Made by a program: the position numbers and the translations under genes
In this document: positions 17,191 through 61,384 of the stretch, piece by piece
Numbering within the stretch: position 1 is the first letter of the stretch
Layout: each line of letters begins with the position of its first letter
DNA from: Deferribacter autotrophicus
GTDB lineage: Bacteria > Chrysiogenota > Deferribacteres > Deferribacterales > Deferribacteraceae
Direction: 5' to 3'
NCBI RefSeq assembly: GCF_008362905.1
Contig: NZ_VFJB01000007.1
Coordinates: forward strand, 1 to 64,000
DNA: 64,000 nucleotides
The notes under the pieces: generated by a model
Seen by the model: the letters and a program-made list of their open reading frames with translations, nothing else
Database searches by the model: none
What the model was told of the DNA's origin: nothing

Positions 17191-17431
17191 ACAGTTCCTT
17201 TTTCAAGCCAACTTATCCATATATTGCAGCACTGCCTTTTAAAGGCTATCCTAAAGCAATCGCTTTTGTCAATAAAAATCAAAATTAAAACTTTTTAGAA
17301 CTTACGTATATTACGATATTTTACACTAAATTCTTATATTACAACTATATAAATTTGAAGTTTATTATCATAATTCAAAAAATTCAGAAAAAATTTTTCC
17401 AAAAAATAGATAAGCAAACTCCTACACTATA

Positions 17432-25666: not shown

Positions 25667-25983
25667 AATACACCTCGTTTATGTATTTATAATACAGAAG
25701 ATAATACAGAGTCTGAAAAAATCAATAATTACTTTTAAATTAAAAGTGTTCTTTTCGCCTGTGGCGGCAAGACGCCATCCATGATGGCTATAGAGATGTT
25801 CGCGGGAAGAAAACTAAAAAAGTAGACGGTGTGATGGAATCTGATATGGTCACTGAACGAAGAATAGTAAAGAAGGTTGATTCTCGGGTATGATGAGGGT
25901 AAATTCCGTAAAAAGAAAGTGAAAAACGGTTGAATATTTTAAGAAGATAAGGCATTATTATATGTAACTTGAGAGGTGAATTA
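25667..25983. other. Intergenic region with possible gene remnant
   Basis: Between the mazF-type pair and the methyltransferase there is no intact gene. A short open stretch near 25795-25893 (reading ...GKKTKKVDGVMESDMVTER...) ends in a stop, and another short frame follows. They may be the tail of a lost coding region. A small palindrome GCCATCCATGATGGC lies near 25773-25787. Confidence 0.4.
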
Positions 25984-26826: not shown

Positions 26827-27538
26827 GATTAGGGTTTATGTTGCAGAGAATATAGGCAAGTTTCACGGTAAGAAGCTTGCGAGATTAAGGAAATTAAAGC
26901 TTAAAGAGATATTGAGAAAGAAAAATCCTTATCTTTTTAAAGTGAAAAATTTTGAAAGTGCCAGTGAAATTGTTAAAGGGATTGTGGACGCTTTTATATC
27001 CTCACAAGAAGAGACAATGTTTGGTGACTGGCTTGAAGATCTGGCTATATTTGTGTGCTATAAAGTTTATGGCGGGATGAAGTCGACTGCTCTTGGTATA
27101 GACCTGGAATTTGTAAGAGATGGAAAAAGGTATCTTGTGTCTATCAAGTCAGGGCCTAATTGGGGAAATAGCAGTCAAATTAAGAAAATGGAGCAAGATT
27201 TTAAAAATGCTAAAATACGTCTTAGAGGGCGAGTAAATGAGGAGATAGTATGTGTAAATGGATGTTGTTATGGACGTGTAACTGTAGATAAAGGGGGTTA
27301 TTTAAAAATATGCGGGCAAGATTTTTGGGAGCTGATTTCAGGAGAGCCTAATCTTTATATTGATATTATTGAGCCACTTGGTTATCAGGCCAGAGAAAAG
27401 AATGAGGAATATTTGGTAGAGTATAATGCTAAACTTAATTTGTTTACTAATGAGTTTATTGAGATTTTTTGTTTTAAGGATGGGAGGATTGACTGGGAGA
27501 GGCTTGTAAATTTTAATTCTGGTTCAAGAAGGGGTTAG
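26810..27538 (+). CDS. PmeII-family type II restriction endonuclease
   Basis: The 242-residue protein matches the PmeII-type pattern: NPYLFKVKNFESASEIV, FGDWLEDLAIFVCYKVYGG, STALGIDLEFVRDGKRY, VSIKSGPNWGNSSQIKKM and the Cys-rich CVNGCCYGRV. The acidic GIDLEF and the SIKSG lysine make up the PD-(D/E)XK active site. It overlaps the methyltransferase gene. The recognition sequence cannot be told from sequence. Confidence 0.87.
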   Translation: MSLLDEIRVYVAENIGKFHGKKLARLRKLKLKEILRKKNPYLFKVKNFESASEIVKGIVDAFISSQEETMFGDWLEDLAIFVCYKVYGGMKSTALGIDLEFVRDGKRYLVSIKSGPNWGNSSQIKKMEQDFKNAKIRLRGRVNEEIVCVNGCCYGRVTVDKGGYLKICGQDFWELISGEPNLYIDIIEPLGYQAREKNEEYLVEYNAKLNLFTNEFIEIFCFKDGRIDWERLVNFNSGSRRG

Positions 27539-48474: not shown

Positions 48475-48822
48475 ATGAAAAGGTTGTATTTATTGATAGT
48501 TCTTATAATTTTAATGAGCTGGAACAATACAAAAGCAGAGAACATTAATGCAATAACATTGAAAAGTATCACTGCGTTAAACTGTAAAATTCAGTATTTA
48601 ATGTATAAGTTTTATAATTCTGAAGAAAGCGGAGTAACGATCAAGCAAAAGGTTGTAAAAGCATTAGAAAAAGCAGTTAAAATTGATAGGATCGATGGGA
48701 TTAAAGCAAGTGTAATTATAAATAGCTGTAGGCAGGGAATAGATGACATATTGGATATTGGTGAAAGCACAAGAACGTTTACAGATTTGTATAGCGTGTT
48801 GGATAGTTTGTTGGGAAATTAA
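48475..48822 (+). CDS. Small exported protein
   Basis: ATG 48475 is followed by a signal peptide (LYLLIVLIILMSWNNTKA) and a helical periplasmic domain of about 95 residues with two cysteines (LNCKIQ and NSCRQG). No family is recognised. It lies alone between a terminator and the leading-region promoter, and could be an entry-exclusion or periplasmic accessory protein. The ribosome site GTGAGGAT is moderate. Confidence 0.7.
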   Translation: MKRLYLLIVLIILMSWNNTKAENINAITLKSITALNCKIQYLMYKFYNSEESGVTIKQKVVKALEKAVKIDRIDGIKASVIINSCRQGIDDILDIGESTRTFTDLYSVLDSLLGN

Positions 48823-48830
48823 AAAAAGCA

Positions 48831-48859
48831 TTGACAATTTAAAATTGGGATTCATACTA
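48831..48859 (+). promoter_or_regulatory. Strong sigma-70 type promoter into the leading region
   Basis: TTGACA (48831-48836), a 17-bp spacer, and ATACTA (48854-48859; TACTAT with 18 bp) precede a structured leader. No ATACCACA box is present, so control differs from the transfer operons. Confidence 0.65.
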
Positions 48860-48902
48860 TTTAATAGATATTTATGTTGTTTGAAAGCTGAATACAAAAC
48901 CA

Positions 48903-48952
48903 GCCTGTGTGGGGCTGTCCGTTGGGCAGGACAGTTGTTAATCCCAGCAGGC
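48903..48952 (+). repeat. Nested stem-loop in the leader
   Basis: GCCTG (48903) pairs with CAGGC (48948), GGG with CCC (48943), and CTGTCC (48915) with GGACAG (48929). The three stacked arms form one long imperfect hairpin. Confidence 0.6.
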
Positions 48953-49000
48953 ATGTGTAGCCCGAAGAAATTAATTACCCTCGCTATTCAAATTGAAATA

Positions 49001-49020
49001 ACTTAACAAATTTGTTAAGT
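49001..49020. repeat. 20-bp perfect palindrome
   Basis: ACTTAACAAATTTGTTAAGT reads the same on both strands. It is a candidate operator or part of an oriT. Confidence 0.85.
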
Positions 49021-49257
49021 AACGGCAACGTAGATAAATTTTATAATTTTTAAATATCTTATAATTCCCTCCTAATCTAGACCAAGCTTGATCTTTTGTG
49101 TTCACGTAAAATATCCATAACTTAATCATTCTATATATAAATCCCAGCATACAATAGTATTGCAGCTAAAATTATGTTTTTTGCCAATATCGGTGTATCT
49201 ATCTGTCGTTGCAGTGTTTTTGTATGCGAGGGATTTGTAACGAGAGATGAAAAAATA

Positions 49258-49326
49258 CGCCTCTGATTGGCGGTGTTCGATCAGTAGGCGAAATAACCCA
49301 TAACCGGCTATGATTGGTTAGCGGGT
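49258..49326. repeat. Two adjacent hairpins before leader copy 1
   Basis: CGCCT-CTGAT (49258) pairs with ATCAG-T-AGGCG (to 49290). ACCC-A-TAACC (49296) pairs with GGTTA-GC-GGGT (to 49326). Confidence 0.65.
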
Positions 49327-49344
49327 AAAAAAAAGAAAGAAAAA

Positions 49345-49424
49345 CCCCGTCAGGGGGCAGTTTGTCCCCTGACGGGGATACGACTGCCTCCTGACAAAAA
49401 AAAATAAAACAAGGAGGCAGAGCT
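49345..49424 (+). promoter_or_regulatory. Anti-SD RNA switch, copy 1
   Basis: CCCCGTCAGGGGGCAG pairs with CCCCTGACGGGG (49366-49377). CTGCCTCCTGAC (49384-49395) can pair either with the SD AGGAGGCAG (49412-49420) or with GTCAGGGGGCAG of the first arm. One fold hides the ribosome site and the other frees it. Confidence 0.75.
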
Positions 49425-49700
49425 ATGTTCAAGTTTATCAAATCAAAAAGAGAAGAAAAAGAAAAAGAATTCTTTGAAATTATCAAGGAGTTCAGGAGTC
49501 AATTTCCAGCAACAGAAGGCTGGAGCATTAATACCTTTATTAACAACAAAACTGGATACGTTGTAACAAAAATTGAAAAAAATGGAAAAGTTATGTCTCA
49601 AGCAACTGTTGAAAAGGGTGACTCGATAATTGACTCCGAAAGAAAAAGTATAATGGAAGCATTAATACGCTTCGGGTTTGTCCCTGATGTAACAAGTTAA
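49425..49700 (+). CDS. Small protein of the leading region
   Basis: The 91-residue protein has a charged helical start (FIKSKREEKEKEFFEIIKEF) and a small alpha/beta body (TGYVVTKIEKNGKVMSQATV). No family is recognised. It is the first gene after the structured intergenic region and is controlled by leader copy 1. Early expression in the recipient is inferred. Confidence 0.75.
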   Translation: MFKFIKSKREEKEKEFFEIIKEFRSQFPATEGWSINTFINNKTGYVVTKIEKNGKVMSQATVEKGDSIIDSERKSIMEALIRFGFVPDVTS

Positions 49701-49723
49701 ACATTAAAAATTAAAAAAAATAT

Positions 49724-49814
49724 CCCCGCAGGGGGAGGTATTTCTCCCTCTGCGGGAGAGTTACGCCTCCTTTCTGCGGGACTGGTTGGGTCTTAAAGAA
49801 AGGAGGTGAGGAGA
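49724..49814 (+). promoter_or_regulatory. Anti-SD RNA switch, copy 2
   Basis: CCCCGCAGGGGGAGG pairs with the CCCTCTGCGGG arm. CGCCTCCTTTCT (about 49764-49775) faces the SD AGAAAGGAGG (49797-49806). The anti-SD and SD both change from the usual CTGCCTCC/GGAGGCAG in a matching way. Confidence 0.7.
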
Positions 49815-50009
49815 ATGTTTAAGTTATATTTGAAATCACTTTTATTAACAGCAGAGGATACTTTAAAGAACATAACCTTTGCTGGAGCAATAGCTATTTT
49901 TATTGATAGGAATTATACGGTTGTAAAACTAATAGTTACATTACTTAGCTTTACATTGACAGTAATATTGAAAAAGAATATTTTAGAAGAAGAAAAGTTG
50001 GAGGAATAA
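49815..50009 (+). CDS. Small membrane protein
   Basis: I choose ATG 49815, after GTGAGGAG; a GTG at 49806 is possible. The product of about 64 residues has two hydrophobic segments (ITFAGAIAIFIDRN and VVKLIVTLLSFTLTVILK) and an acidic tail. It heads a run of tiny membrane proteins. Function unknown. Confidence 0.7.
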   Translation: MFKLYLKSLLLTAEDTLKNITFAGAIAIFIDRNYTVVKLIVTLLSFTLTVILKKNILEEEKLEE

Positions 50010-50011
50010 AA

Positions 50012-50125
50012 ATGTTAGGGATTGTTCTTTTGGGAGTATTTGTATTAATTATTGGAATAGCAGGAATAATAGCTGGAAGATATTTGATAAATGAAAAAAA
50101 GAAAGAAAAGCATAATCACGTTTAA
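50012..50125 (+). CDS. Tiny single-span membrane protein, HNH-tailed (37 aa)
   Basis: GGAGG precedes the ATG. One hydrophobic helix (GIVLLGVFVLIIGIAGIIAG) is followed by a basic tail ending KHNHV. It is one of a local family with 50129 and 50367. The role is unknown; it could be a membrane regulator or exclusion peptide. Confidence 0.65.
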   Translation: MLGIVLLGVFVLIIGIAGIIAGRYLINEKKKEKHNHV

Positions 50126-50128
50126 AAT

Positions 50129-50245
50129 ATGAGTGGTGTAGAAATAGCATTTATAATTGGAATAGCCGTTGCACTAATAGGTGCTATAGCTGGATTTTTA
50201 GCGTTTAGAGAATTGAAAAAAGGAAATCATAACCATGTTAAATGA
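50129..50245 (+). CDS. Tiny single-span membrane protein, HNH-tailed (38 aa)
   Basis: One helix (IAFIIGIAVALIGAIAGFLA) and a tail KKGNHNHVK. It starts 3 bp after the previous stop, so translation is coupled. It resembles its neighbours in length, helix and tail. Confidence 0.62.
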   Translation: MSGVEIAFIIGIAVALIGAIAGFLAFRELKKGNHNHVK

Positions 50246-50264
50246 AGTGTAATAGAGGAAAAAA

Positions 50265-50357
50265 ATGAGTGTAGGTGCAATTTTATTAATTATGTTACTA
50301 ATAACAGCAATAATAGGGTTTACAGCCGTATATTTTTACTTCAAAGATGAAAAGTAG
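50265..50357 (+). CDS. Tiny single-span membrane protein (30 aa)
   Basis: AGAGGAA precedes the ATG. One helix (GAILLIMLLITAIIGFTAVY) and the end FYFKDEK. Its second half is repeated in a decayed form at 50495-50543. Confidence 0.6.
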   Translation: MSVGAILLIMLLITAIIGFTAVYFYFKDEK

Positions 50358-50366
50358 AAAATAAAT

Positions 50367-50486
50367 ATGGAAGGGATAATTTTCATAGGAATATTTTTTG
50401 GAATTATGGGAATACTTGCGATAATTGCAGGTTATTATCTTCAAAAAGAGAAAGAAAAAAAGGAAAATCACAACCATATTCATTAA
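50367..50486 (+). CDS. Tiny single-span membrane protein, HNH-tailed (39 aa)
   Basis: One helix (IIFIGIFFGIMGILAIIAG) and a basic tail ending KENHNHIH. It is the fourth in a row of like genes. The ribosome site is weak, so it may depend on the upstream genes. Confidence 0.6.
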   Translation: MEGIIFIGIFFGIMGILAIIAGYYLQKEKEKKENHNHIH

Positions 50487-50494
50487 AACATAAT

Positions 50495-50543
50495 AAGTGA
50501 AATAGGTTTCACTGCAACATACCTATATTTCAAAGACGAATAA
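50495..50543 (+). pseudogene. Decayed copy of the 30-aa membrane gene
   Basis: The stretch reads EIGFTATYLYFKDE then stop, matching IIGFTAVYFYFKDEK of the 50265 gene. It has no start codon. A local duplication has decayed. Confidence 0.65.
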
Positions 50544-50584
50544 GATGGTCTAATTTAAATCAAAAATAGAATATGAAACTAACA

Positions 50585-50671
50585 CCCCGCAGGGGGAGCA
50601 GTCTATTTGCGTCCCCTTGCGGGGATAAGACTGCCTCCTTCTGCGGGTAAAAAAGAAGAAGGAGGTAGATT
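50585..50671 (+). promoter_or_regulatory. Anti-SD RNA switch, copy 3 (before ssb)
   Basis: CCCCGCAGGGGGAGCAG pairs with CCCCTTGCGGGG. CTGCCTCCTTC faces the SD GAAGGAGGTAG just before ATG 50672. The extra TTC in the anti-SD is matched by GAA in the SD. Confidence 0.75.
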
Positions 50672-51076
50672 ATGTATTTCAATAAGGTAGTTCTTTTAGG
50701 AAATATGACAAGAAACCCAGAAGTCAGATATATACCAGGGAGTGGAACTCCCGTAGCAACTTTTGGGTTAGCGGTTAACAGAAAGTATAAGAAAGATGAT
50801 GAAAGTATGACAGAAACCTGTTTTGTAGATGTAGTTGCCTACTCAAAATTAGCCGAGTTTATAGGAGAATATACGGCTAAGGGCATGGCAATATTGGTAG
50901 AAGGGCGTCTATCATATCGAACTTGGGAACAAGACGGTCAAAAACGTAGCAAACACGAAATTGTTGCTGAGAATATTCAACTTGTTTGGAGGAAAGATAA
51001 AACAACGGAAGAATCAGATCTTGTAGAAGAAAATGACTCTGATGAATTTTTTGATGAAGATGATATACCCTTTTAA
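50672..51076 (+). CDS. ssb: Single-stranded DNA-binding protein
   Basis: The 134-residue protein is a typical SSB: MYFNKVVLLGNMTRNPEVRY, TPVATFGLAVNRKY, FVDVVAYSKLAEFIGEYTAK, GMAILVEGRLSYRTWEQDGQ and the acidic tip DEFFDEDDIPF. It coats the incoming transferred strand and recruits repair proteins. SSB is a hallmark of plasmid leading regions. Expression is predicted to be controlled by leader copy 3. Confidence 0.96.
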   Translation: MYFNKVVLLGNMTRNPEVRYIPGSGTPVATFGLAVNRKYKKDDESMTETCFVDVVAYSKLAEFIGEYTAKGMAILVEGRLSYRTWEQDGQKRSKHEIVAENIQLVWRKDKTTEESDLVEENDSDEFFDEDDIPF

Positions 51077-51088
51077 TAAATAAACCCT

Positions 51089-51201
51089 CCCCGTCGGGGG
51101 ACTCCAGTATCCCCCGATGGGGGATTACTGCCTCCTTGAAGAGGACTCCCGTGGCGGGAGTGAGTCTCTCGGCGGGAGAAAAACATAAAGGAGGCAGAGT
51201 T
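51089..51201 (+). promoter_or_regulatory. Anti-SD RNA switch, copy 4 (before bet)
   Basis: CCCCGTCGGGGG pairs with CCCCCGATGGGGG. CTGCCTCCTT faces AAGGAGGCAG just before ATG 51202. An extra hairpin GACTCCC-GTGGC-GGGAGTGAGTC and TCTCGGCGGGAGA lies between them, a feature unique to this copy. Confidence 0.7.
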
Positions 51202-52032
51202 ATGAGTAACGTAGTTAAACTTGAAAAATCTTTTAATGAAAAAGAGCTTGAGGTAATCAAAAAACAATTTTTTCCATCAAATACAAGCAAAGAAGAAATG
51301 GAATATTGCCTTGCAGTCGCAAAAACATTTGGTCTCAATCCAATTACAAAAGAAATTCACTTCGTACCTCGAAAACAACAGGTAAACGGAAAATGGATAG
51401 AAAAAGTTGAACCGCTGGTTGGCAGAGACGGCTTTTTATCAATAGCGCACAAAAGCGGCCAACTTGCAGGAATGAAAACTGAAAGTTATATCAAAGAAGT
51501 TCCCACTCTTGAAAATAGTAAATGGGTGATTAAACCTGACCTGGTGGCAAGATGTGAAGTATATCGTAAAGATAGTGATAAACCTTTTGTAGTTGAAGTT
51601 AGATATTCCGAATATGTTCAATATACTAAGGACGGTAAACCAACACGCTTTTGGCAGAAAATGCCTGATACTATGCTTAAAAAAGTTGCTGAATCACAGG
51701 CACTCAGAAAAGCTTTCAATATATCGGGCATTTATGCTGCCGAAGAAGTTGGTATAGGCACTTATTCGGAAAATGGTGATCTTATAATTGATACTGAAGT
51801 TGAAATAACTCAAGAGGATAAGCCTACTGAGTTATCTAAAGGTTATATTGACCCTGATGAAATTATAGAAGCTTTTAAAGCTTTAGGTTTTGACGCTGCG
51901 TTTGGAAAAAATAGAGATAGAATATATGTGCGGGGTAATTTCTACAACAAACCCGCAGCAAAAAAATTACTCGAAATGTATAATTTTACAAAAACAAAAG
52001 AAAAAAATGTTTACTGCTTAAGAATTGCTTAA
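51202..52032 (+). CDS. bet: Bet/RecT single-strand annealing recombinase
   Basis: ATG 51202 has an AAGGAGGCAG site; an earlier in-frame ATG lies in the leader hairpin. The 276-residue product has the RecT core: CLAVAKTFGLNPITKEIHFV, VEPLVGRDGFLSIAHKSGQL, FWQKMPDTMLKKVAESQALR and KAFNISGIYAAEEVG. It anneals complementary strands together with the exonuclease encoded at 52877. The C-terminus has an extra domain of about 75 residues. Confidence 0.94.
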   Translation: MSNVVKLEKSFNEKELEVIKKQFFPSNTSKEEMEYCLAVAKTFGLNPITKEIHFVPRKQQVNGKWIEKVEPLVGRDGFLSIAHKSGQLAGMKTESYIKEVPTLENSKWVIKPDLVARCEVYRKDSDKPFVVEVRYSEYVQYTKDGKPTRFWQKMPDTMLKKVAESQALRKAFNISGIYAAEEVGIGTYSENGDLIIDTEVEITQEDKPTELSKGYIDPDEIIEAFKALGFDAAFGKNRDRIYVRGNFYNKPAAKKLLEMYNFTKTKEKNVYCLRIA

Positions 52033-52042
52033 GAGGTGTTAA

Positions 52043-52234
52043 ATGAAAATAATAATCGAAAAATTACTTGATTTAGCCAACATGTTTATTGCAGGCTATG
52101 TGATCTCATATATTTTTAAACCAGAATTTAAAAAATTCTGGTATATAATCTTTCCCATCAGTTTAAGTATTTATCTAATTGCGATAACATCATTAATTAT
52201 TGAATATTTGAAAAAAAACAGTAAATTAAAATAG
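52043..52234 (+). CDS. Small two-span membrane protein
   Basis: The 63-residue product has two hydrophobic segments (LANMFIAGYVISYIF and WYIIFPISLSIYLIAITSLI) with a short basic loop. AGAGGTG precedes the ATG. No family is recognised. Confidence 0.65.
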   Translation: MKIIIEKLLDLANMFIAGYVISYIFKPEFKKFWYIIFPISLSIYLIAITSLIIEYLKKNSKLK

Positions 52235-52243
52235 GAGTAAAAA

Positions 52244-52354
52244 ATGAGGAGTAACATGATAGTTTGGATAGCGTTATATGCTACAATTGCAATTATAATT
52301 ATAGCAACTGCGATAGGAATGTATATAGAATACAAAATTGATAAGAAGAAATAA
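52244..52354 (+). CDS. Tiny single-span membrane protein (36 aa)
   Basis: TAGGAG precedes the ATG. One helix (IVWIALYATIAIIIIATAIG) and a basic tail YKIDKKK. Its stop overlaps the next start (TAATG). Confidence 0.62.
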   Translation: MRSNMIVWIALYATIAIIIIATAIGMYIEYKIDKKK

Positions 52355-52446
52355 TGATTGGATTGTATGTAACAATAGGCACTATTGTTGTAATGTTCAT
52401 AATCGGCGTAATTGTTGAACATAAAATAGAAAAACCAAAAAAGTAA
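52354..52446 (+). CDS. Tiny single-span membrane protein (30 aa)
   Basis: One helix (LYVTIGTIVVMFIIGVIV) and the tail EHKIEKPKK, similar to its upstream neighbour. Translation is coupled by TAATG. Confidence 0.6.
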   Translation: MIGLYVTIGTIVVMFIIGVIVEHKIEKPKK

Positions 52447-52503
52447 TTTCTCAATAATAATTAAAAAACTTCCTACATATTTTAAATCATAAAAAATAAA
52501 TAT

Positions 52504-52578
52504 CCCCCGCAGGGGGCAGTTGTCCTCCTGCGGGAGGATTACTGCCTCCTGTTAAATAAAAGTAAGGAGGTAGATAAA
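52504..52578 (+). promoter_or_regulatory. Anti-SD RNA switch, copy 5
   Basis: CCCCCGCAGGGGGCAGT pairs with TCCTCCTGCGGGAGG. ACTGCCTCCTG (52541-52551) can pair with AAGGAGGTAG (52564-52573), or with CAGGGGGCAGT in the other fold. Confidence 0.75.
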
Positions 52579-52785
52579 ATGTATAACATTAAAAAAATCG
52601 AAAAAGAATTGAAAAGATATGGATATGACAGGGTTTTTCAATGGCTTGATGACCCATGTTACGATTTACCTGACTATTTATCAGACTTCCAGAAGGTTGC
52701 CGAAATGTCAGGAGCAACCAATATTCGACAGGTTCTATTTTTTATGGAAATTTTAAATAAACTTGAACGTCTTGAACACAGATAA
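52579..52785 (+). CDS. Small leading-region protein
   Basis: The 68-residue protein is helical (IEKELKRYGYDRVFQWLDDP, then NIRQVLFFMEILNKLERL). No family is recognised. It lies alone between leader copies 5 and 6. Confidence 0.65.
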   Translation: MYNIKKIEKELKRYGYDRVFQWLDDPCYDLPDYLSDFQKVAEMSGATNIRQVLFFMEILNKLERLEHR

Positions 52786-52797
52786 ATAAAAATCCAT

Positions 52798-52876
52798 CCC
52801 CGCAGGGGGCAGATACTGTCCCCTGCGAGGGGATAAGTCTGCCTCCTGCAAAGAAAAAATTACTAGGGAGGCAGAA
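52798..52876 (+). promoter_or_regulatory. Anti-SD RNA switch, copy 6 (before exonuclease)
   Basis: The clearest copy. GCAGGGGGCAGA (52802-52813) can pair with all 12 bases of TCTGCCTCCTGC (52838-52849, one G-U). The latter can instead pair with GGAGGCAGA (52867-52875), the ribosome site. CCCCTGCGAGGGG completes the first hairpin. Confidence 0.8.
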
Positions 52877-53815
52877 ATGATTCACGAAATAATAAAAAAA
52901 TACTTACCTAAAATTATTAAAGAAAAATCAGAAATAGAATTAGGCAACCGTAAAGAATATATAGGAGCAAGTGATATTGCTCAGTGTTCAAGAAAGGTTG
53001 TTCTAAGTAAACTAAATCCTGTTGAACACGATGTTGAGACTTTAATACGTTTACAGCGTGGCCATTTAACGGAAAATCTGTTAAAAATGATATTTGATAA
53101 AACTCCTTATAAATATACAACTCAAATGGAATTAACACATCCGGATTTGCCATATCTTAAAGCACATTTAGATTTTGTGTTTTATACCAAAGATATGAGC
53201 AAAATCGGTGTATTGGAATTAAAAACTGTTTCAAGTATGCCAGATGAACCTCATGAGAGCTGGATTCAACAGCTTCATTTTCAATTAGGATTAATGATAT
53301 TGAAATATCCTGATGCGGAAATAAAAGGTTCAGTTCTGGTTATCAATATCAATACAGGCGAAATGAAGGAATTTAACAATTATGAACCTAATAATGTAAT
53401 TTTTAATGCCTTATTAGAAAAGGCAAAAAAGATAAAAATGGCATTGGACGGACAAATAGAACCTAAGACTGAACAAGGTTTTTTATGTTCCAGTTGTCCA
53501 TATAAAACTGATTGTCCCGCTTTAATTAAGGGAGAAAAAGTTGAGTTTCCTGACGATATGAAACAAAGAGTAAAAAAACTAAAAGAATTGGTTAAAATCG
53601 AAAAAGAAACTAAGTCATTAAAAAATGAAATTAAGCTGTATATGGAATCAATAGGTATCAAAACGGGAATTGCCGATGATATCATAGTTCAGTATCAATC
53701 AAGAAAAGGACGTAAAACTCTTGATGAAAAAGCTTTAAAAGAAGCTTATCCGGAAATAGATATAACGCCTTTCTATAAAGAAGGCGATCCTTATAGTTTC
53801 ATAACATTGAAGTAA
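52877..53815 (+). CDS. PD-(D/E)XK exonuclease (Cas4/YqaJ-like) with Fe-S-type cysteines
   Basis: The 312-residue protein has the nuclease core GHLTENLLKMIF, LKAHLDFVFYT and VLELKTVS, and a Cys cluster near FLCSSCPYKTDCPAL that fits an iron-sulfur site, as in Cas4 or AddB-type nucleases. It is two genes after bet, so the two probably form a Red-like recombination system. It acts on DNA ends during or after entry. Confidence 0.85.
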   Translation: MIHEIIKKYLPKIIKEKSEIELGNRKEYIGASDIAQCSRKVVLSKLNPVEHDVETLIRLQRGHLTENLLKMIFDKTPYKYTTQMELTHPDLPYLKAHLDFVFYTKDMSKIGVLELKTVSSMPDEPHESWIQQLHFQLGLMILKYPDAEIKGSVLVININTGEMKEFNNYEPNNVIFNALLEKAKKIKMALDGQIEPKTEQGFLCSSCPYKTDCPALIKGEKVEFPDDMKQRVKKLKELVKIEKETKSLKNEIKLYMESIGIKTGIADDIIVQYQSRKGRKTLDEKALKEAYPEIDITPFYKEGDPYSFITLK

Positions 53816-53821
53816 AACCCA

Positions 53822-53897
53822 CCCCCATCGGGGGCAGGCAACTGTCCCCGATGAGGGGATTAGTGCCTGCCTCCGATAGTGAAGAAAGGAGGCAAAG
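53822..53897 (+). promoter_or_regulatory. Anti-SD RNA switch, copy 7
   Basis: ATCGGGGGCAGGCA (53827-53840) and TGCCTGCCTCCGAT (53864-53877) are complementary apart from one G-U. The ATCG/CGAT change is matched in the CCCCGATGAGGGG arm. The SD is AGGAGGCAA (53887-53895). Confidence 0.75.
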
Positions 53898-54146
53898 ATG
53901 CTGACAGCTGTTAATGAATTAAATAAAATAAAAGCAAAAGATATTAAAAAGTTTTTAGATTCCATTAATTTAAGCCTTAAAGTAAACAAAAAACCACATA
54001 GCTTATCATCAACATATACGATTGTTGATAAAAAAGGTTATCCTGTATTTTACGGAAATTACAACGCATTTATAAAGTTTATTTGTTCACTAAACTACAT
54101 TCTCAACTATGTGAGAACAAATAATATTAATGAAAGAATGAATTAA
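53898..54146 (+). CDS. Small leading-region protein
   Basis: The 82-residue protein starts with a helix (NELNKIKAKDIKKFLDSINL) and has a YTIVDKKGYPVFYGNYNAFI part suggestive of small alpha/beta proteins. No family is recognised. It lies behind leader copy 7. Confidence 0.65.
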   Translation: MLTAVNELNKIKAKDIKKFLDSINLSLKVNKKPHSLSSTYTIVDKKGYPVFYGNYNAFIKFICSLNYILNYVRTNNINERMN

Positions 54147-54154
54147 ATAACCCG

Positions 54155-54253
54155 CCCCGACAGGGGGTAGTCAATCCCCTGTCGGGGGATTACTGCGACT
54201 GCCTCCTGTCCTTTTCTGGGTGGGTAACCAAAAAATATGACAGGAGGTAGAAA
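54155..54253 (+). promoter_or_regulatory. Anti-SD RNA switch, copy 8
   Basis: GACAGGGGGTAGTC (54159-54172) and GACTGCCTCCTGTC (54197-54210) pair along 14 bases. The latter also pairs with GACAGGAGGTAG (54239-54250) at the ribosome site. The GACAGG/CCTGTC variant appears in all four arms, a clear compensatory pattern. Confidence 0.8.
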
Positions 54254-54484
54254 ATGGCAGTATTAGTTATTACAGAAAATAATTATCAAACTGTTTTCCC
54301 ATCAATAAAGGAAGCATCTCCTTTCTTAAAAGAAATAGTCCAGCAATATGGAAAGATTAAACAAATAATAACAGATTACTCCCCTAAAACTCCCCATGGC
54401 AGTTGTCCAGAATGCGGATCGCCAATGGCATTTGAGGAAGGTTGTCGCAAGTGTCATAGTTGCGGTTATTCGCTTTGTGGATAA
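54254..54484 (+). CDS. Small zinc-ribbon protein
   Basis: The 76-residue product ends with GSCPECGSPMAFEEGCRKCH then SCGYSLCG, a C4-type ribbon like that at the end of some ribonucleotide reductases. The N-terminus is an unassigned small domain. It is behind leader copy 8 and 12 bp before the next gene. Confidence 0.75.
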   Translation: MAVLVITENNYQTVFPSIKEASPFLKEIVQQYGKIKQIITDYSPKTPHGSCPECGSPMAFEEGCRKCHSCGYSLCG

Positions 54485-54496
54485 GGGGGATAAATT

Positions 54497-54859
54497 ATGA
54501 ATAGGGAAGAACTAAATGAAATAATAGAAATAATTGCTTCCAACGGTATTTATGCCGGTGGAAAGGGATTTGAAATTCACAAACCTAAATTTAAGAGGAT
54601 ATTTGAACTATATTATCAACTTGTATGTATTAGAGGAAGGGTCCAAACACTTGCAATTAATACAAAGAATAGAACAATAAAAGGTATTCAGAACTTTTGT
54701 TCTGGGTGTTCTAATGTAAAAAACAAATCAATAAAAAAATGCTTCAATATTTATACTAGCGCTGATTTTGAGCGCTGGTATGAAAAAAATCATACTCTCA
54801 TCTTTAATAAGGAAGGTGAGAGAAAAATCCAAGAAACTAAAAGAGCTTTAACCATATAA
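54497..54859 (+). CDS. Leading-region protein with Cys cluster
   Basis: The 120-residue protein has an alpha/beta start (GIYAGGKGFEIHKPKFKRIF) and a Cys patch (IQNFCSGCSNVKNKSIKKC). It may bind metal. No family is recognised. AGGGGGAT precedes the ATG. Confidence 0.65.
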   Translation: MNREELNEIIEIIASNGIYAGGKGFEIHKPKFKRIFELYYQLVCIRGRVQTLAINTKNRTIKGIQNFCSGCSNVKNKSIKKCFNIYTSADFERWYEKNHTLIFNKEGERKIQETKRALTI

Positions 54860-54865
54860 TACCTA

Positions 54866-54936
54866 CCCCCGCAGGGGGCAGTTGATCCCCCTGTGGGGGA
54901 TTACTGTCTCCTGCGAAAAAACAAAAGGAGGCAGAA
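54866..54936 (+). promoter_or_regulatory. Anti-SD RNA switch, copy 9 (before radC-like)
   Basis: CCCCCGCAGGGGGCAGT pairs with CCCCCTGTGGGGG. ACTGTCTCCTGCG (54903-54915) faces AGGAGGCAGA (54926-54935), with one G-U change relative to other copies. Confidence 0.75.
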
Positions 54937-55350
54937 ATGATTTTGAAAGAATATAAAAGTAAAAAGATAAAAAACCCTAAAGATGTAGCTAAGATTTTAC
55001 AAGCAATTTTATGTTCAGAACATAAAATTGATCAAGACAAAGAGCATCTCTGGTGCATAGGATTGAACACCAGAAATATCATTAAATATATTGAGTTAGT
55101 TTCTTTAGGAACTTTAGACGAAACGTTAATAGAACCAAGAGAGGTCTTTCGATTAGCAATTTTCAAAGGGGTGAAGAATATAATAGTTGCACATAATCAT
55201 CCCTCTGGAAATTTGAGATTCAGTAATGCAGACATACAAGCTACTGAAAGGCTTAAAAAATGTGGAGAAATATTGGGAATAGGAGTCTTAGACCATATTC
55301 TTATAACTGTAGATGATTACATATCAATGAAACAAGAAGGTTTAATGTGA
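54937..55350 (+). CDS. radC: RadC/JAB-domain protein
   Basis: The 137-residue protein is a RadC-type JAMM domain with IIVAHNHPSGNLRFSNADIQ and ILGIGVLDHILITVDDYI. The metal site HxH and the distant D are present. The N-terminal HhH part of full RadC is missing, as in many mobile-element versions. Its biochemical role is unclear; a role in incoming-DNA processing or anti-restriction is likely from context. Confidence 0.9.
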   Translation: MILKEYKSKKIKNPKDVAKILQAILCSEHKIDQDKEHLWCIGLNTRNIIKYIELVSLGTLDETLIEPREVFRLAIFKGVKNIIVAHNHPSGNLRFSNADIQATERLKKCGEILGIGVLDHILITVDDYISMKQEGLM

Positions 55351-55357
55351 AAACCCA

Positions 55358-55431
55358 CCCCGCAGGGGGCGTAGTCCTCCTGCGGGAGGATTACTGCCTC
55401 CTGCAAAAAAACAAAATAAGGAGGCAAAGTA
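55358..55431 (+). promoter_or_regulatory. Anti-SD RNA switch, copy 10
   Basis: CCCCGCAGGGGGCG pairs with TCCTCCTGCGGGAGGA. ACTGCCTCCTGC faces AAGGAGGCAAAG before ATG 55432. The short insertion GTAG changes the loop. Confidence 0.75.
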
Positions 55432-56496
55432 ATGGCAAGGTTAGAAAGTCAAAAGAAAATGGGATATTATCCTACTCCAAAGGAAGTAGTTGAACAAATT
55501 AGAGAACTATTATCTTTTTCAGCAGGTGCAAGATGTTTAGATACCTGTTGCGGAACAGGTGAAGCTCTCGCTACACTAACCAAAAATGCACCTGTCAGAA
55601 CCTATGGTGTGGAGTTAGATAAAGAAAGAGCAATAACAGCAAGGCAAAAGCTATATAAAGTATTAAACTGTGATGCTTTATATGAAACACGCATCACAAA
55701 TAATGCTTTTGACTTGCTATTTTTAAACCCACCATATGATTGGGATGTAAAAGAAAATGAAACTGAGAATAGTGAAAAAACGGAGAAAAAATTTTTACAA
55801 TTTCATCTCCGTTATCTAAACACGAAGGGTGTAATAATTTATGTAATTCCATTTTTATCTCTAAAATACACTTATCGATTTTTCCTTAGAATGAAAAATT
55901 TACGGGTGTTGGCTTTTCCAGAGGAACTCTATAAACAGTTTAAGCAAATAGTAATTATAGGAAAATCAACACCGTTTGCTGATAAAGAACTAATAAACAA
56001 TAATCGAAATATGCTAAAAAATATAATAAATATGGTTGACTCAGAGAGGGCTTATGAAACTCTCTGGACAACCGAAAGTATATTAACAAGTGATTATCGT
56101 CCTCTTTATGAGGTTGAAGCGAATACGGTTGAGTTAAAAACGTTCAGCTCAACTCGTATTGACCCAGAAGATGCAATAGAACAGTTAAAAAATTCGGTAG
56201 TTTATACCGAATTCAATAAATTAACGAAAATTCAAAAAGTAGAGGAAATCCGTCCGCTTGCAATGTTGAGAAATGGGCATTTAGCAATGCTTTTAGCAAG
56301 CGGTATAATGAATGGTAGATTAAAAAATAATAAATACGACTTGATAGTTAAAGGAAGTATCAAGTCATATATGGAAAAAACAGACTCCGACTATGACGAA
56401 GAAAAAGCAAGTTTAGTAGAGAAATCTGTCAAGAAATACCAGATAGTAGTCAGAAGTTTAGATTTAAAAAAATTACGATTTATCGAAATTAAATGA
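55432..56496 (+). CDS. DNA methyltransferase-like protein (DUF6094-type)
   Basis: The 354-residue protein has the AdoMet site CLDTCCGTGEALATL, the acidic YGVELDKERAITARQ and the catalytic FLNPPYDW (N6-adenine type NPPY). This resembles DUF6094 methyltransferases of mobile elements. No restriction partner is near, so an orphan or protective role is likely. A partner gene of unknown function and an SNF2 helicase follow. Confidence 0.85.
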   Translation: MARLESQKKMGYYPTPKEVVEQIRELLSFSAGARCLDTCCGTGEALATLTKNAPVRTYGVELDKERAITARQKLYKVLNCDALYETRITNNAFDLLFLNPPYDWDVKENETENSEKTEKKFLQFHLRYLNTKGVIIYVIPFLSLKYTYRFFLRMKNLRVLAFPEELYKQFKQIVIIGKSTPFADKELINNNRNMLKNIINMVDSERAYETLWTTESILTSDYRPLYEVEANTVELKTFSSTRIDPEDAIEQLKNSVVYTEFNKLTKIQKVEEIRPLAMLRNGHLAMLLASGIMNGRLKNNKYDLIVKGSIKSYMEKTDSDYDEEKASLVEKSVKKYQIVVRSLDLKKLRFIEIK

Positions 56497-56513
56497 CTAA
56501 ATGAGGTGCAAAA

Positions 56514-57032
56514 ATGGAAAGATATAGAAAAATAAAGTATTTAGGTAATGAAGTATATACTGATAAATATATTGAAAGAGGTAGTTTTATCTATCTTATG
56601 TCAATATTTGGAACTCCCGAATTAGTTAAAGGTTTAACATCTGCGATACTAACGGGAGAAGAAATAGAAGTTGAAAATGATGGAGTAATGGCAAGGAGTA
56701 ATACAACTAAATACACATTCATACAGAAAAAGGTAGGGCAAAATTTGGTTCATTGTTTGCTCTACCAAAAAGAATTATTTGTGTTTAATCAAATAAATAA
56801 AGTAGCAGTAATTATTGAACCTACTATTGAAAAGATATATGAGCTGATAGACAGTAAAATATCAACCCCATTAATTCCTGAATGGAAAGAGTTTATAATG
56901 GAATTGGTTAATCCAATACCATTAAATACATTCGGGTACAAAAGTGCTGTGGAAATAGAAATACCAGAAGAAAGCTATATTGAAAATGAAATAATTAATA
57001 ATCTAAAGGAAAGAAGATTAGCACTAAACTAA
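56514..57032 (+). CDS. Unknown partner of the methyltransferase-helicase set
   Basis: The 172-residue protein lies 17 bp after the methyltransferase gene and has an AGGTG site. The motif ERGSFIYLMSIFGTPELVKG and the strand-rich middle (MARSNTTKYTFIQKKVGQNL) do not point to a known family. Genes of this kind accompany methyltransferase and helicase pairs in mobile elements. Confidence 0.65.
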   Translation: MERYRKIKYLGNEVYTDKYIERGSFIYLMSIFGTPELVKGLTSAILTGEEIEVENDGVMARSNTTKYTFIQKKVGQNLVHCLLYQKELFVFNQINKVAVIIEPTIEKIYELIDSKISTPLIPEWKEFIMELVNPIPLNTFGYKSAVEIEIPEESYIENEIINNLKERRLALN

Positions 57033-57050
57033 CTAAAATATGGATAAAAA

Positions 57051-57132
57051 CCCCTGCGGGGGGCAGGTAACTCCCCGCAGGGGGGATAATTATGCCTGCC
57101 TCCCGCAAGAAAAAAATAAAAGGAGGCAGGTT
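57051..57132 (+). promoter_or_regulatory. Anti-SD RNA switch, copy 11 (before the helicase)
   Basis: TGCGGGGGGCAGG (57055-57067) pairs with CCTGCCTCCCGCA (57095-57107) with one G-U. The first arm also pairs with CCCCGCAGGGG. The SD is AGGAGGCAGG (57121-57130). TGCGGG/CCCGCA is changed together in each arm. Confidence 0.8.
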
Positions 57133-59688
57133 ATGAAAAAATTTCTACAAAAGTATGAGACATATTTCTTTTTTTACAATGTCAAATTAGATTGGTATTG
57201 GTTTCCTCTCGAATATGTAGGCAAAAGAGATGGTATAGTATTTGGATTTGTAGTAGGGGATTTCCCAGAATTTGGGGATTTTTCCTTGCACGAAATATTT
57301 AGCATAGGCGGAACAGTCGGAGGAGCATTTGAAAAAGCAAGAAAATTGGACGAATTAGTAGAAATAGTCGAAAAAGGCGGTATTTTAGAAGCAGACGCAG
57401 ACATATATCTTGATGAATTTATAAAAGTTACGAGGAGTAAGGCAAGTTTACAAGAGTATCTTGAAACCTTGCCAAACTCAAAAGTAACATTTAACGAAAT
57501 AGAAAAAGATGAAGAAAATAAAAAAGAATTATCCTTAAAAGACTTTTTAAATGAATTTGGTGATACACTAAAAGAAAAAGTATTAAAAAAACTAAATCCT
57601 ATTTATAACCCTGCTCAAATTGGTGAGTGGGAAAAGAAAGAAAATCATAAGTTAAATAAATTATTAAGAAAACCCTTTAATGCCCAGAGGCACGCTATTT
57701 TAGCGTTGGCTAAAGGGTTTTATAAGGAAAACAAAAAATCTCTTATCTTAACCGCTGAAATGGGAACAGGAAAAACAATAATGGGAATGAGTGTTGCATA
57801 TCTAAATCCCAAAAAGAACAAAAGAACACTTGTTGTTTGTCCTCCCCATTTAGCGGAAAAATGGGTAAGAGAAATAAAGGAAACAATACCTAATGCCAAA
57901 GTAAAGGTTTTGAGGTCCATATCTGATATAGACAAATCAAAACCGCAAGGAATTGAGTATTGGGTATTAAAAAACACCACTGCTAAATTACATTACTCTG
58001 TAAAATATGTGAAAAGACTGAATGATAATGACACCTTAAATAAATGTCCAGATTGCGGAGTCGAGTTATCTATTGACAATGTAATTGGTAACACAATGCC
58101 TAAATGTGCGGTATGTAAAACACCTCTATACTACGCAGATAAAGATAGATTCCGCAGATATGGATTAGCAGAATATATAAAAAGAAAAAAAATAAGAATT
58201 GATTTTCTAATATTAGATGAAGTTCACGAATTAAAAGGTGGCGACACTGCGGTTGGTCAAGCAATGGCTAACCTTGTAAGTGTTGCTGATAAAACACTTG
58301 CAATGACAGGAACTCTAATGGGCGGATATGCAAAAAACCTTTTCTATATCCTTTTTAGAATGTTTACGAAAAGGTTTATAGAAAAGGGATATACTCATAG
58401 TTCCGTAACATCTTTTGAAAGGAACTATGGGGTAATTGAAGAAACAAGAGTGTATGTAAAAGACTCTGGTAGAAGCTCTTCTATTGGAGCAAGGTTAAAG
58501 AGTGTTAAAGTTCACTCAAAACCGGGTATGTCCCCAGGACTTCTACCAGAATTTATTTTAGATAGCACTTATTTTATGAAGTTGTCAGATGTTTCGGATC
58601 AGCTACCTGAATATTCGGAATATCTGATAGGTGTTGAAATGGATGAATTACAATATGACATCTACAAGCATTTTGAAAATTCGCTTGTAGATGAAGTTAA
58701 AAGGTTGTTGGTTGTTGGAAGCACAAGGCTATTGGGAGCAATGGTTAATTCTCTTTACGCTTTGCCTGATGGGGCAAGACGAGGTGAAATTGCTATTGAT
58801 CCAGCAACCAAAGAAGAGATTGCTGTTGCACCACCAATAGATTTGTATATGCTTCCAAAAGAAAAAAAGCTAATAGAACTAATAATGAAAGAAAAACAAA
58901 AGAACCGTAAGTGTGCCATATTTCTAGAACACACAGGCACAAGAGATTTAATTCCTGATTTAGTCGAAAGACTTGAAAATAACGGGATAAAAACTCTTGT
59001 GTTAAGGAGTGGTTCTCCTGCAACAGACAAACGGGAAGCATGGATAAAAAGAAAATTAAAGGAAAATCCAGATACAGATGTTCTAATCTGTAATCCTAAC
59101 CTTGTTAAGACAGGGTTAGATTTATTGGATTTTCCTACAATTATATTTTTTCAAACAGGGTATAACATATATACCCTAAGACAGGCTTCTCGTAGGTCAT
59201 GGAGAATTGGGCAAAAACAACCCGTTAGGGTGTATTATATGTATTACAATGATACTATGCAGGAAAGGGCAATGAAGCTGATAGCGACAAAAATGGAAAC
59301 TTCTCTTGCAGTAGAAGGTGATTTATCCGAAAACGGTTTGACATCTCTTTCTGAAGGCGAATCAATGACAATTCAAATGGCTAAAGCACTTGTTGATGGT
59401 GATAAAGATAATAAGAAACTTGAAGATATATTCTCATCTTATAGAGAAAAGGATATGACAACTGATTTAGAGTTAGATGAGACATACGAAATAGTAAATC
59501 TTACTGAAATTGAAAGAAAAGAAATTAAAACCTCAAAGGGTAAGACAAGGACAATTGAAACAGGAATTGAAACTGTTATAGAAAAAGCATGGGAAAATGC
59601 TAAAAAGAAAGAAGTTGGTAACTATACACTAGAGTATGTAACGATTGATGACTTATTAAAAGCATTAGAAATAGAAGAAGTGGCTTAG
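57133..59688 (+). CDS. SNF2-family DEAD/DEAH helicase with zinc ribbon
   Basis: ATG 57133 follows the AGGAGGCAGG site; an ATG at 57040 lies in the leader hairpin. The 851-residue protein has Walker A (LTAEMGTGKTIMGM), DEVH box (LILDEVHELKGG), the TGTLMGG motif, and the SNF2 end (RQASRRSWRIGQKQPVRVYY). A zinc ribbon (CPDCGVEL ... CAVCKTPL) is inserted between the Walker A region and the DEVH box. It probably remodels DNA-protein complexes; pairing with the methyltransferase suggests a defence or anti-restriction role. Confidence 0.88.
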   Translation: MKKFLQKYETYFFFYNVKLDWYWFPLEYVGKRDGIVFGFVVGDFPEFGDFSLHEIFSIGGTVGGAFEKARKLDELVEIVEKGGILEADADIYLDEFIKVTRSKASLQEYLETLPNSKVTFNEIEKDEENKKELSLKDFLNEFGDTLKEKVLKKLNPIYNPAQIGEWEKKENHKLNKLLRKPFNAQRHAILALAKGFYKENKKSLILTAEMGTGKTIMGMSVAYLNPKKNKRTLVVCPPHLAEKWVREIKETIPNAKVKVLRSISDIDKSKPQGIEYWVLKNTTAKLHYSVKYVKRLNDNDTLNKCPDCGVELSIDNVIGNTMPKCAVCKTPLYYADKDRFRRYGLAEYIKRKKIRIDFLILDEVHELKGGDTAVGQAMANLVSVADKTLAMTGTLMGGYAKNLFYILFRMFTKRFIEKGYTHSSVTSFERNYGVIEETRVYVKDSGRSSSIGARLKSVKVHSKPGMSPGLLPEFILDSTYFMKLSDVSDQLPEYSEYLIGVEMDELQYDIYKHFENSLVDEVKRLLVVGSTRLLGAMVNSLYALPDGARRGEIAIDPATKEEIAVAPPIDLYMLPKEKKLIELIMKEKQKNRKCAIFLEHTGTRDLIPDLVERLENNGIKTLVLRSGSPATDKREAWIKRKLKENPDTDVLICNPNLVKTGLDLLDFPTIIFFQTGYNIYTLRQASRRSWRIGQKQPVRVYYMYYNDTMQERAMKLIATKMETSLAVEGDLSENGLTSLSEGESMTIQMAKALVDGDKDNKKLEDIFSSYREKDMTTDLELDETYEIVNLTEIERKEIKTSKGKTRTIETGIETVIEKAWENAKKKEVGNYTLEYVTIDDLLKALEIEEVA

Positions 59689-59721
59689 CGGGTTAATCCC
59701 GTTAGCCACTTTCTAATTAAA

Positions 59722-59871
59722 TCTCCTATCCTTGGGGGTTGGGCAACCCATAGAGTGCATGGTAACCGTGGTGGTTTGGGGTGACCATCGGGAGAGTCTA
59801 TGATCTGCCTCCGCTCTCCCTTCCATGTCCTTTGTGGGTTGCCCACCCAAAAAAGGATAGGAGGTAGTCTT
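59722..59871 (+). promoter_or_regulatory. Large divergent leader structure (copy 12)
   Basis: CTCCTATCC (about 59722-59730) pairs with the distant ribosome site GGATAGGAG (from 59855). GGGTTGGGCAACCC (59737-59750) pairs with GGGTTGCCCACCC (from 59836). Inside are ATGGTAACC/GGTGACCAT and GGGAGAG/CTCTCCC. A CTGCCTCC core is kept. The design resembles the other copies but with a longer insert. Confidence 0.6.
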
Positions 59872-60111: not shown

Positions 60112-60230
60112 TCCCGCAAGGGAGTGCCTCTCTGCTTCTGGCAGAGGGGAACATCTCTCGGAAGCCGTTCTCTCAGACTTACTCAAACCTAACCATAGTT
60201 AGGTTTTGCTGAGTTCCTGCTTCAGCGAGA
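60111..60230 (-). ncRNA. Probable omega RNA at the tnpB 3-prime end
   Basis: On the minus strand, after the tnpB stop, two hairpins occur: CCCCTCTGCCAGAAGCAGAG with GAGG closing, and CTCCCTTGCGGGAG near the end. TnpB guides normally extend from such scaffolds into the flank, which would here be TTTCAATCCCAGTTC. The location fits; the length is inferred. Confidence 0.6.
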
Positions 60231-61384
60231 GGGTGCTTCTTAGGTAGCACAAGGCTACGGTCGTCCACAGAGCCTCTCTCCACAGGCGTATAGGTTCGGG
60301 TGGAACTCACCCTACCGTAATTTAACAGGTTGATAGCGGCGTTTAAGTCTCTATTAATTACCAAACCACAGTTAGGACACTTGAAGGTTCTGTCGCTTAA
60401 TTTTAAGTTGTAATTTACATAGCCGCACTTTGAACAGATCTTAGAGCTTGGAAACCACCTATTTACAATAATAAGGTTGTTGCCTCTTAGTTGTGTTTTG
60501 TATTCAAGTTGTCTTTTAAGTTCATGGAAACCTACATCCGATATAGCTTTGGCAAGATGGTGATTTTTAAGTAAACCTTTTACATTTAAGTCCTCAATCA
60601 CAATGGTTTTGTAATTTTTGGTTAGATAAGTGGTTATTTTATGCAGATAATCACTGCGAATGTTTCTTATTCTATAGTATAGTTTTTCTATCCTTACAAC
60701 CTGTTTTTTGTATCTGTTAGAGCCTTTTTGTTTCCTTGAAAGCTGACGCTGTAATCTTTTTAAACGCTTTTCATACCTGTTTAGAGTTTTGATATTTTCA
60801 AAAAAAGTCCCATCAGACAGCACTGCAAGTTTTTCTATTCCCAAATCCACACCAACCTCTGCTTGGTTCTCGCAGGGTTGGTATGGGTTTTGAACCACAT
60901 CAATAGTAAAAGATATAAACCACTTACCAGCTTTGCAGGATACGGTTGCATTTAGGATTTTACCGTTAAACCTTAAGTTTTCCCTCATTCTTACCCAACC
61001 GAGTTTTGGTATTCTCACTTTGTTGTCGTGTACTTTTATCTGGTCTCCACCGATGTAAAAACTATCTTTATTGGACTTTTTCTTTTTAAATCTTGGTTTT
61101 CTGGCTAATCCTTTAAAATATCTACCAAAAGCTTCTTGTAGTTGTAAAAATGGCTGTTGAGAGGCGTATTTTGTTACCTCTAAAACAAAGGGGTATTCTT
61201 TTCTTTTTATAGAGTTGAATTGCTTTTTGAGCTCTAAAGCGTTTGGCTTTTTGCCAGTTTTATACTGTTTTTCCCAATTCTCTAAAGCCCAATTCCATAC
61301 AAATCTGGCTACACCGCAGGCTTTTTTAAAGTATGTTATTTGCTTATTATTAGGGTCTAACCTAATTTTGTGAGCTAACTGCAT
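60179..61384 (-). CDS. tnpB: TnpB RNA-guided endonuclease
   Basis: The 401-residue protein has the helix-turn-helix/OrfB start (YFKKACGVARFVWNWALENW) and the split RuvC site with D180 (AEVGVDLGIEKLAV), E264 (IVIEDLNVKG) and D346 (INRDLNAAINLL). The zinc ribbon Cys317-Cys320 and Cys336-Cys339 is complete. The length is normal for compact TnpB. With an omega RNA it cuts DNA next to a TAM and preserves the element. All catalytic residues are kept although tnpA is dead. Confidence 0.95.
   Translation of the reverse strand: MQLAHKIRLDPNNKQITYFKKACGVARFVWNWALENWEKQYKTGKKPNALELKKQFNSIKRKEYPFVLEVTKYASQQPFLQLQEAFGRYFKGLARKPRFKKKKSNKDSFYIGGDQIKVHDNKVRIPKLGWVRMRENLRFNGKILNATVSCKAGKWFISFTIDVVQNPYQPCENQAEVGVDLGIEKLAVLSDGTFFENIKTLNRYEKRLKRLQRQLSRKQKGSNRYKKQVVRIEKLYYRIRNIRSDYLHKITTYLTKNYKTIVIEDLNVKGLLKNHHLAKAISDVGFHELKRQLEYKTQLRGNNLIIVNRWFPSSKICSKCGYVNYNLKLSDRTFKCPNCGLVINRDLNAAINLLNYGRVSSTRTYTPVERGSVDDRSLVLPKKHPLAEAGTQQNLTMVRFE

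Follow-up and report, generated by a model that had tools for sequence, protein, structure and literature searches.

A repeated leader with two competing folds at the Shine-Dalgarno site on a Deferribacter conjugative element

Leader copies and their layout

The 64,000-nucleotide stretch of Deferribacter autotrophicus DNA analysed here, referred to as the window, forms the first part of a contig of 85.9 kb (NZ_VFJB01000007.1) that carries an F-type transfer system (TraC, TraF) and a coupling protein. Between 49.3 and 57.1 kb lie eleven leaders of approximately 70-125 nucleotides (nt), all on the + strand and each directly 5′ of a start codon. With the addition of a larger leader at 59724-59864, the leader-bearing stretch of this F-type conjugative element extends from 49.3 to 59.9 kb. 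The eleven are very probably members of a real, evolutionarily maintained family of bistable leaders, repeated on conjugative elements, and the bistability is well supported by comparison of copies and by predicted folds. The leaders precede the following genes (ORF, open reading frame; aa, amino acids).

49345-49420, +, bistable leader 1, before the 91-aa ORF at 49425
49724-49809, +, bistable leader 2, before the ORF at 49815
50585-50668, +, bistable leader 3, before SSB
51086-51197, +, bistable leader 4, before RecT; an extra hairpin, whose 3′ arm pairs with segment A in the open fold
52504-52573, +, bistable leader 5, before the 68-aa ORF at 52579
52797-52875, +, bistable leader 6, before the PD-(D/E)XK/Cas4-like nuclease
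53822-53895, +, bistable leader 7, before the 82-aa ORF at 53898
54151-54250, +, bistable leader 8, before the 76-aa Cys-rich ORF at 54254
54866-54934, +, bistable leader 9, before RadC
55355-55427, +, bistable leader 10, before the DUF6094 methyltransferase
57050-57129, +, bistable leader 11, before the SNF2-type helicase
59724-59864, +, larger leader of a separate type, a long interrupted hairpin

Each of the eleven consists of four segments in the order A, A′, B and SD (the Shine-Dalgarno site), with an A-rich spacer between B and SD. Segment A has a C-rich start followed by, for example, GCAGGGGGCAG; A′ is CCCCTGCGGGG, B is CTGCCTCCTGC and SD is GGAGGCAG. Allowing up to two mismatches, CTGCCTCCTGC has 35 matches in the window where 4.3 would be expected, eight times chance, and the matches are concentrated in the leader block. 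A covariance model built from ten of the copies and run on the 2.54 Mb genome recovers all eleven (+ strand, E ≤ 4e-5), with no convincing copy outside the block. Two ORFs inside the block, at 54497 and 56514, have no leader. The first-pass annotation of this DNA had described eleven copies before start codons and all are present as it stated; the coordinated use of one leader before many genes, which it also proposed, is strongly supported.

The same annotation listed one larger variant. The leader at 59724-59864 is real and is conserved in a relative, G003, introduced below (counterpart at approximately 17250-17398 of locus L042), but it is of a different type: its own 5′ end masks its SD and the A/A′/B/SD layout is not displayed. 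A small conserved protein gene follows, and the type has no match in Rfam.

On the minus strand (49344-57067), the A hairpins of most leaders, placed after A-runs, read as terminator-like and possibly block antisense transcription.

Two competing folds

Segment B is able to pair either with A, leaving the SD open, or with the SD, closing it, and the two pairings are mutually exclusive. Every copy has a fold that competes with SD masking, through B or, in the RecT leader, through an extra segment. To assess specificity, the duplex energy of each helix with its own partner was compared with the energies when partners were swapped between copies, using 20,000 permutations. For A:B the values, own versus swapped, are -26.5 and -20.6 kcal/mol in the window and -23.3 and -15.5 kcal/mol in G003, and none of the 20,000 permutations was as good in either case. 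Helix A:A′ is likewise copy-specific in both genomes (0/20,000). The copy-specificity of B:SD is weaker, yet significant, and A′:B, serving as negative control, gives no copy-specific signal in the swap tests on the window and G003.

Crossing orthologous leaders between the two genomes weakens A:B in all eight pairs (-27.1 versus -18.6). On an alignment not fitted to the structure A:B covaries, with 97.2% paired against 89.4% after shuffling (0/500), and it also outperforms slid registers. Unguided, RNAalifold returns the A:B fold enclosing a small A′ hairpin. The swap tests, ortholog crosses, covariation and predicted folds together lend strong support to the two mutually exclusive pairings that had been postulated from a reading of the letters. 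The arrangement, with two exclusive pairings of which one masks the SD, is at the level of sequence and prediction that of a translational switch with an anti-SD and an anti-anti-SD.

Other pairings were considered. A′:B and A′:SD were rejected on the lack of a clear copy-specific signal, and a simple pseudoknot, of the A loop with B, was rejected since it leaves unexplained a complementarity that extends into the A:A′ stem.

Might the SD simply be hidden to hold the genes at a low level, with A:B a relic of a leader that arose by duplication of one hairpin? Almost all leaders are predicted to have the closed fold as ground state and in several copies A resembles SD and A′ resembles B, as such static masking would have it. 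However, A:B is copy-specific and compensated between orthologues whilst A′:B carries no signal, the RecT leaders retain pairing of A by means of a new segment, and the same pattern arises in unrelated sequences. We regard static masking as improbable.

Predicted order of folds during transcription

The predicted folds of the growing transcript run from A:A′, through A:B with an A′ hairpin, to A:A′ together with B:SD. This order was followed in 29 leaders from the window, G003 and a metagenome-assembled genome (MAG) of Campylobacterales. Transcripts cut before the SD adopt the A:B fold in 27 of the 29, and full-length transcripts adopt the closed fold, A:A′ plus B:SD, in 26. When, as a control, the second half was swapped between copies, A:B forms in 38% and 16%. 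Folding at temperatures from 37 to 70 °C gives the same outcome.

The simple truncation test fails for the RecT leaders of both genomes. Each has an additional hairpin, the 3′ arm of which pairs with A, and B has its own local partner; when cut after the extra hairpin these leaders fold open, which reproduces the same open-then-closed order.

The toehold available to B on entering A:A′ has a median of 4 nt, that available to the SD on entering A:B a median of 1 nt, and the first is the larger in 27 of 34. Toeholds that favour B into A over SD into A:B suggest that the open state arises ahead of the synthesis of the SD and is then slow to close.

Leaders in other lineages

Among the 59 relatives searched, a syntenic block with 15 leader copies is present in one, G003, a member of a different family within the order. 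Homologous transfer genes and a MOBH relaxase lie on the same contig, the block additionally encodes the antirestriction protein ArdC, and the helicases of the window and G003 are 72% identical. The G003 SSB leader (L042, approximately 4940-5100) has an additional structured stretch of about 160 nt separating B from SD.

A pattern scan of a wider collection of genome contigs gave 35 loci, of which only those on contigs of the Campylobacterales MAG are convincing. Here two contigs provide three analysed copies, one of them before an ArdC gene, with the caveat that the bin may be contaminated. The matches in Moorella and Thermodesulfobacteriota, and the remaining weak ones, were judged to be chance. 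A protein-pattern scan of the genome-contig collection gave no match, no leader block was found in viral contigs, and no such leaders are evident near the helicase or DUF6094 genes of Thermoanaerobacterium or Malaciobacter plasmids.

Two AT-rich relatives, G025 and G037, whose helicase is 51% identical, have eight leaders that share the layout but differ in sequence; the sequence-based covariance model missed them. An automatic detector of the layout fires on 10 of 15 ORFs in the block and 12 of 22 in the G003 locus, compared with 5 of 43 in the rest of the window and none of 17 in the G003 transfer region. Since five ordinary window ORFs are flagged, single matches mean little, and the detector is unreliable at high GC content; Thermus, with 28 of 70 ORFs flagged, is too GC-rich to judge.

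The design, with unrelated-looking sequences, occurs on mobile elements of other bacterial phyla as well. The layout is seen before at least eight genes of a Pseudomonas aeruginosa MOBH/MPF_G plasmid and before five of a Vibrio conjugative plasmid, with segment boundaries chosen by hand and guided by the predicted SD hairpin. The A:B energies in P. aeruginosa are -16.4 for own and -10.7 for swapped partners (0/20,000 permutations as good), and in Vibrio the true pairing is the best of all 120 permutations. In both, the cut RNA mostly folds open and the full RNA mostly closed. The first-pass annotation was therefore wrong to describe a rarely repeated design, given the similar leaders in G003 and those of different sequence on mobile elements, among them ones from Pseudomonas and Vibrio.

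Three of the leaders on the P. aeruginosa conjugative plasmid NZ_CP124633 start 6-29 nt after a radC RNA recognized by Rfam (L116, 3889-4036, 4967-5116 and 7492-7629). The radC RNA motif (RF01754; Weinberg et al. 2010, PMC2864571) is a cis-regulatory RNA class, like the leaders associated with mobile-element genes, but it has another structure and a length of 149 nt. As radC RNAs directly precede three leaders, the two may be parts of one regulatory region, and in Pseudomonas a 5′ region containing radC RNA may have the leader as its output part. The majority of the Pseudomonas leaders lack a preceding radC RNA, and at gathering score RF01754 is matched only ahead of leaders in L116, with no match in the window, L042, L109 or L072.

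The spacing to the preceding gene bears on a switch coupled to ribosomes, in which a ribosome finishing the upstream gene would cover the 5′ part of A, break A:A′ and favour A:B, so coupling neighbouring genes. Segment A begins 4-18 nt after the upstream stop codon in most of the window copies and the register of A:B is displaced 3′ relative to that of A:A′, both in keeping with this idea. Against it, the distance from stop codon to leader ranges from 4 to 57 nt, leader 1 has no close ORF upstream, and in G025 hairpins resembling intrinsic terminators (AGTGGCTTATGCCACT plus a T-run) separate several leaders from the preceding gene. Such coupling seems to us quite improbable. Near-identical terminator-like hairpins of this kind stand between gene units of an AT-rich relative at 8402, 9268, 9910, 10294 and 11448 of L109.

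Genes of the block

The genes with recognizable products are listed below, together with TraC from the adjoining transfer region.

43139-45643, +, TraC, F-type conjugation ATPase, context gene (PF11130, 6.2e-56)
49425-49700, +, first gene of the block, 91 aa, predicted α-β-β-β-α fold, weakly similar to a double-stranded RNA-binding domain (dsRBD)
50672-51076, +, SSB (PF00436, 2.8e-32)
51202-52032, +, RecT (PF03837, 3.9e-40)
52877-53815, +, PD-(D/E)XK/Cas4-like nuclease
54937-55350, +, RadC-like JAB domain protein (PF04002, 2.2e-36)
55432-56496, +, DUF6094 methyltransferase (PF19587, 1.7e-28)
57133-59688, +, SNF2/DEAD-type helicase

This content fits a conjugative establishment, or leading-region, regulon. 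It is plausible that the genes preceded by leaders are expressed on entry into a new cell, on the basis of the gene content (SSB, RecT, nuclease, RadC, methyltransferase and helicase, with ArdC in relatives) and the F-type transfer system.

A location on conjugative elements near SSB and ArdC genes would also suit hairpins that function in single-stranded DNA during transfer, as primosome or protein-binding sites or as promoters of the Frpo type, the single-strand promoters that act in this way in F-like plasmids (PMC11541004). However, no -35/-10 elements are recognized inside the GC-rich hairpins, and the fixed position relative to the SD and start codon, together with the complementarity to the SD, points to RNA. 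We consider a role in single-stranded DNA very improbable.

The main rival to a mechanism inherent in the RNA is a trans-acting, structure-specific factor that runs an equilibrium switch, for example a plasmid-encoded protein binding double-stranded RNA that holds the closed fold stable in cells where the element is established and that a newly entered cell lacks, a form of translational zygotic induction. So many leaders in one block suggest a common regulator, dsRBD structures are among the best fold matches of the 91-aa protein encoded by the first gene, and the establishment genes of plasmid p576 are under repressor-based control (PMC8708921). The fold matches are, however, weak (Foldseek best E 0.09; VIA Z ≤ 6.4), with RAD52/Mgm101 equally high, and the leader sequence is not conserved between lineages, so that any such factor must read structure only. 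On balance we judge this explanation somewhat unlikely.

Just 5′ of leader 1 is a 520-bp intergenic region (48822-49343) containing palindromes and, at 48831, a promoter-like site of the TTGACA type; the region is a candidate operon start or origin of transfer (oriT). At the other end an IS605/TnpB-like ORF on the minus strand (60179-61384) marks the end of the leader block; a RAGATH-18 match below threshold lies close to the end of this ORF. Elsewhere on the element, at 25969-27538, an EcoO109I-type restriction enzyme (PF14511, 3.5e-81) adjoins an ORF resembling a DNA methyltransferase.

A possible co-transcriptional timer

How conjugative elements express establishment genes fast but transiently is an open question, which this leader makes directly testable. 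We favour, at about even chances, a co-transcriptional timer that needs no ligand, with the SD open on nascent RNA and closed on finished RNA. During transcription A would pair first with A′. The emerging B would then enter through the unpaired loop side of A and displace A′, leaving one long hairpin in which A:B closes the small A′ hairpin, and the SD would emerge unpaired so that ribosomes could start. The open fold would persist for a while because the SD finds almost no free B nucleotides to grip. A:A′ plus B:SD is predicted to be the more stable at equilibrium, and an mRNA would close unless ribosomes held it open. Fresh transcripts might in this manner give a burst of translation of establishment-type genes, and transcripts that are old or idle would be silent.

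What can be read directly from the sequences and the folding calculations is the presence of the segments, a complementarity specific to each copy for both folds, and the dependence of the predicted fold order on transcript length. We infer the rates, the time window, the trigger and a role when the element arrives in a new cell. The lineages have different leader sequences and share no conserved unpaired motif, which makes a ligand or protein that reads sequence unlikely. With layout and order of energies kept in the absence of such a motif, folding itself looks to have been selected.

Several observations weigh against the timer. For two Campylobacterales leaders and one from G003 the closed fold is not preferred at full length. 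The G025 and G037 leaders favour A:B in two of eight cases when boundaries are set by hand and in six of eight with automatic ones. The barriers of direct paths without pseudoknots are high, with means of approximately 20 and 16 kcal/mol for the two steps, and do not show the first step to be the faster. B:SD hardly covaries, for the reason that the SD shows next to no variation. Exchange between adjacent helices is reported to be much faster in vivo than in vitro (PMC2817708), which would shorten any open window. Finally, the support for the folds consists of predicted energies.

More tentatively, such a timer could be widespread: free of ligand, independent of sequence, conserved in topology and used repeatedly on conjugative elements of several phyla for a burst of establishment-gene expression, a generalization about which we remain doubtful. 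If the timer is true, selection acts on folding order and not on a sequence motif, and family searches based on sequence miss such elements. For the leaders of the Pseudomonas and Vibrio plasmids, reporter studies in common laboratory hosts are feasible.

Comparison with known systems

Searches against Rfam release 15 at gathering score place no family over the leaders of the window or of five other loci, in agreement with the initial remark that no described RNA family is known to have this layout, and a permissive scan of the window gave sub-threshold matches only. A limited literature search found no published description of this leader. Competing helices of SD and anti-SD are a known concept; the leader itself fits no described family found. 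A small-molecule switch is not favoured on sequence grounds, since the layout is conserved without a conserved sequence or unpaired motif that might form an aptamer. The conserved positions lie, by inspection, in the pairing segments and none is common to the lineages.

A functional parallel is EGeRS1 of the pLS20-family plasmids (Val-Calvo et al. 2021, PMC8708921), which blocks expression from an upstream promoter by a mechanism stated to be unknown. It too comprises several GC-rich inverted-repeat regions, which lie directly 5′ of the ribosome sites in establishment operons, that of ardC among them (PMC8708921), but these are branched and 420-751 bp in length as opposed to 70-125 nt. When EGeRS1-B was folded the SD fell largely outside the main structure and no strong A/A′/B/SD layout was apparent. 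EGeRS1 is set apart here by length and fold, the sequences not having been aligned directly. Frpo/ssi single-strand promoters (PMC11541004) are likewise structured elements serving early genes of conjugative plasmids; they differ in being DNA promoters with -35/-10 elements, and no sigma-70-like site was recognized in the leaders.

Two systems resemble the leaders in timing. According to the discussion in PMC6733600, the leader of the MS2 maturation gene is transiently open and allows brief translation before a closed equilibrium fold is reached, as predicted for the timer, though it is a single cloverleaf in an RNA phage as distinct from a short leader repeated in DNA mobile elements. The predicted fold order and toeholds are compatible with transient opening of the MS2 type; the calculated path barriers are not decisive. 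In the hok and aapA toxin mRNAs (PMC6733600) metastable hairpins formed during transcription also control access to the SD, but there the transient folds keep translation off, whereas the transient fold of the leaders is predicted to leave the SD open.

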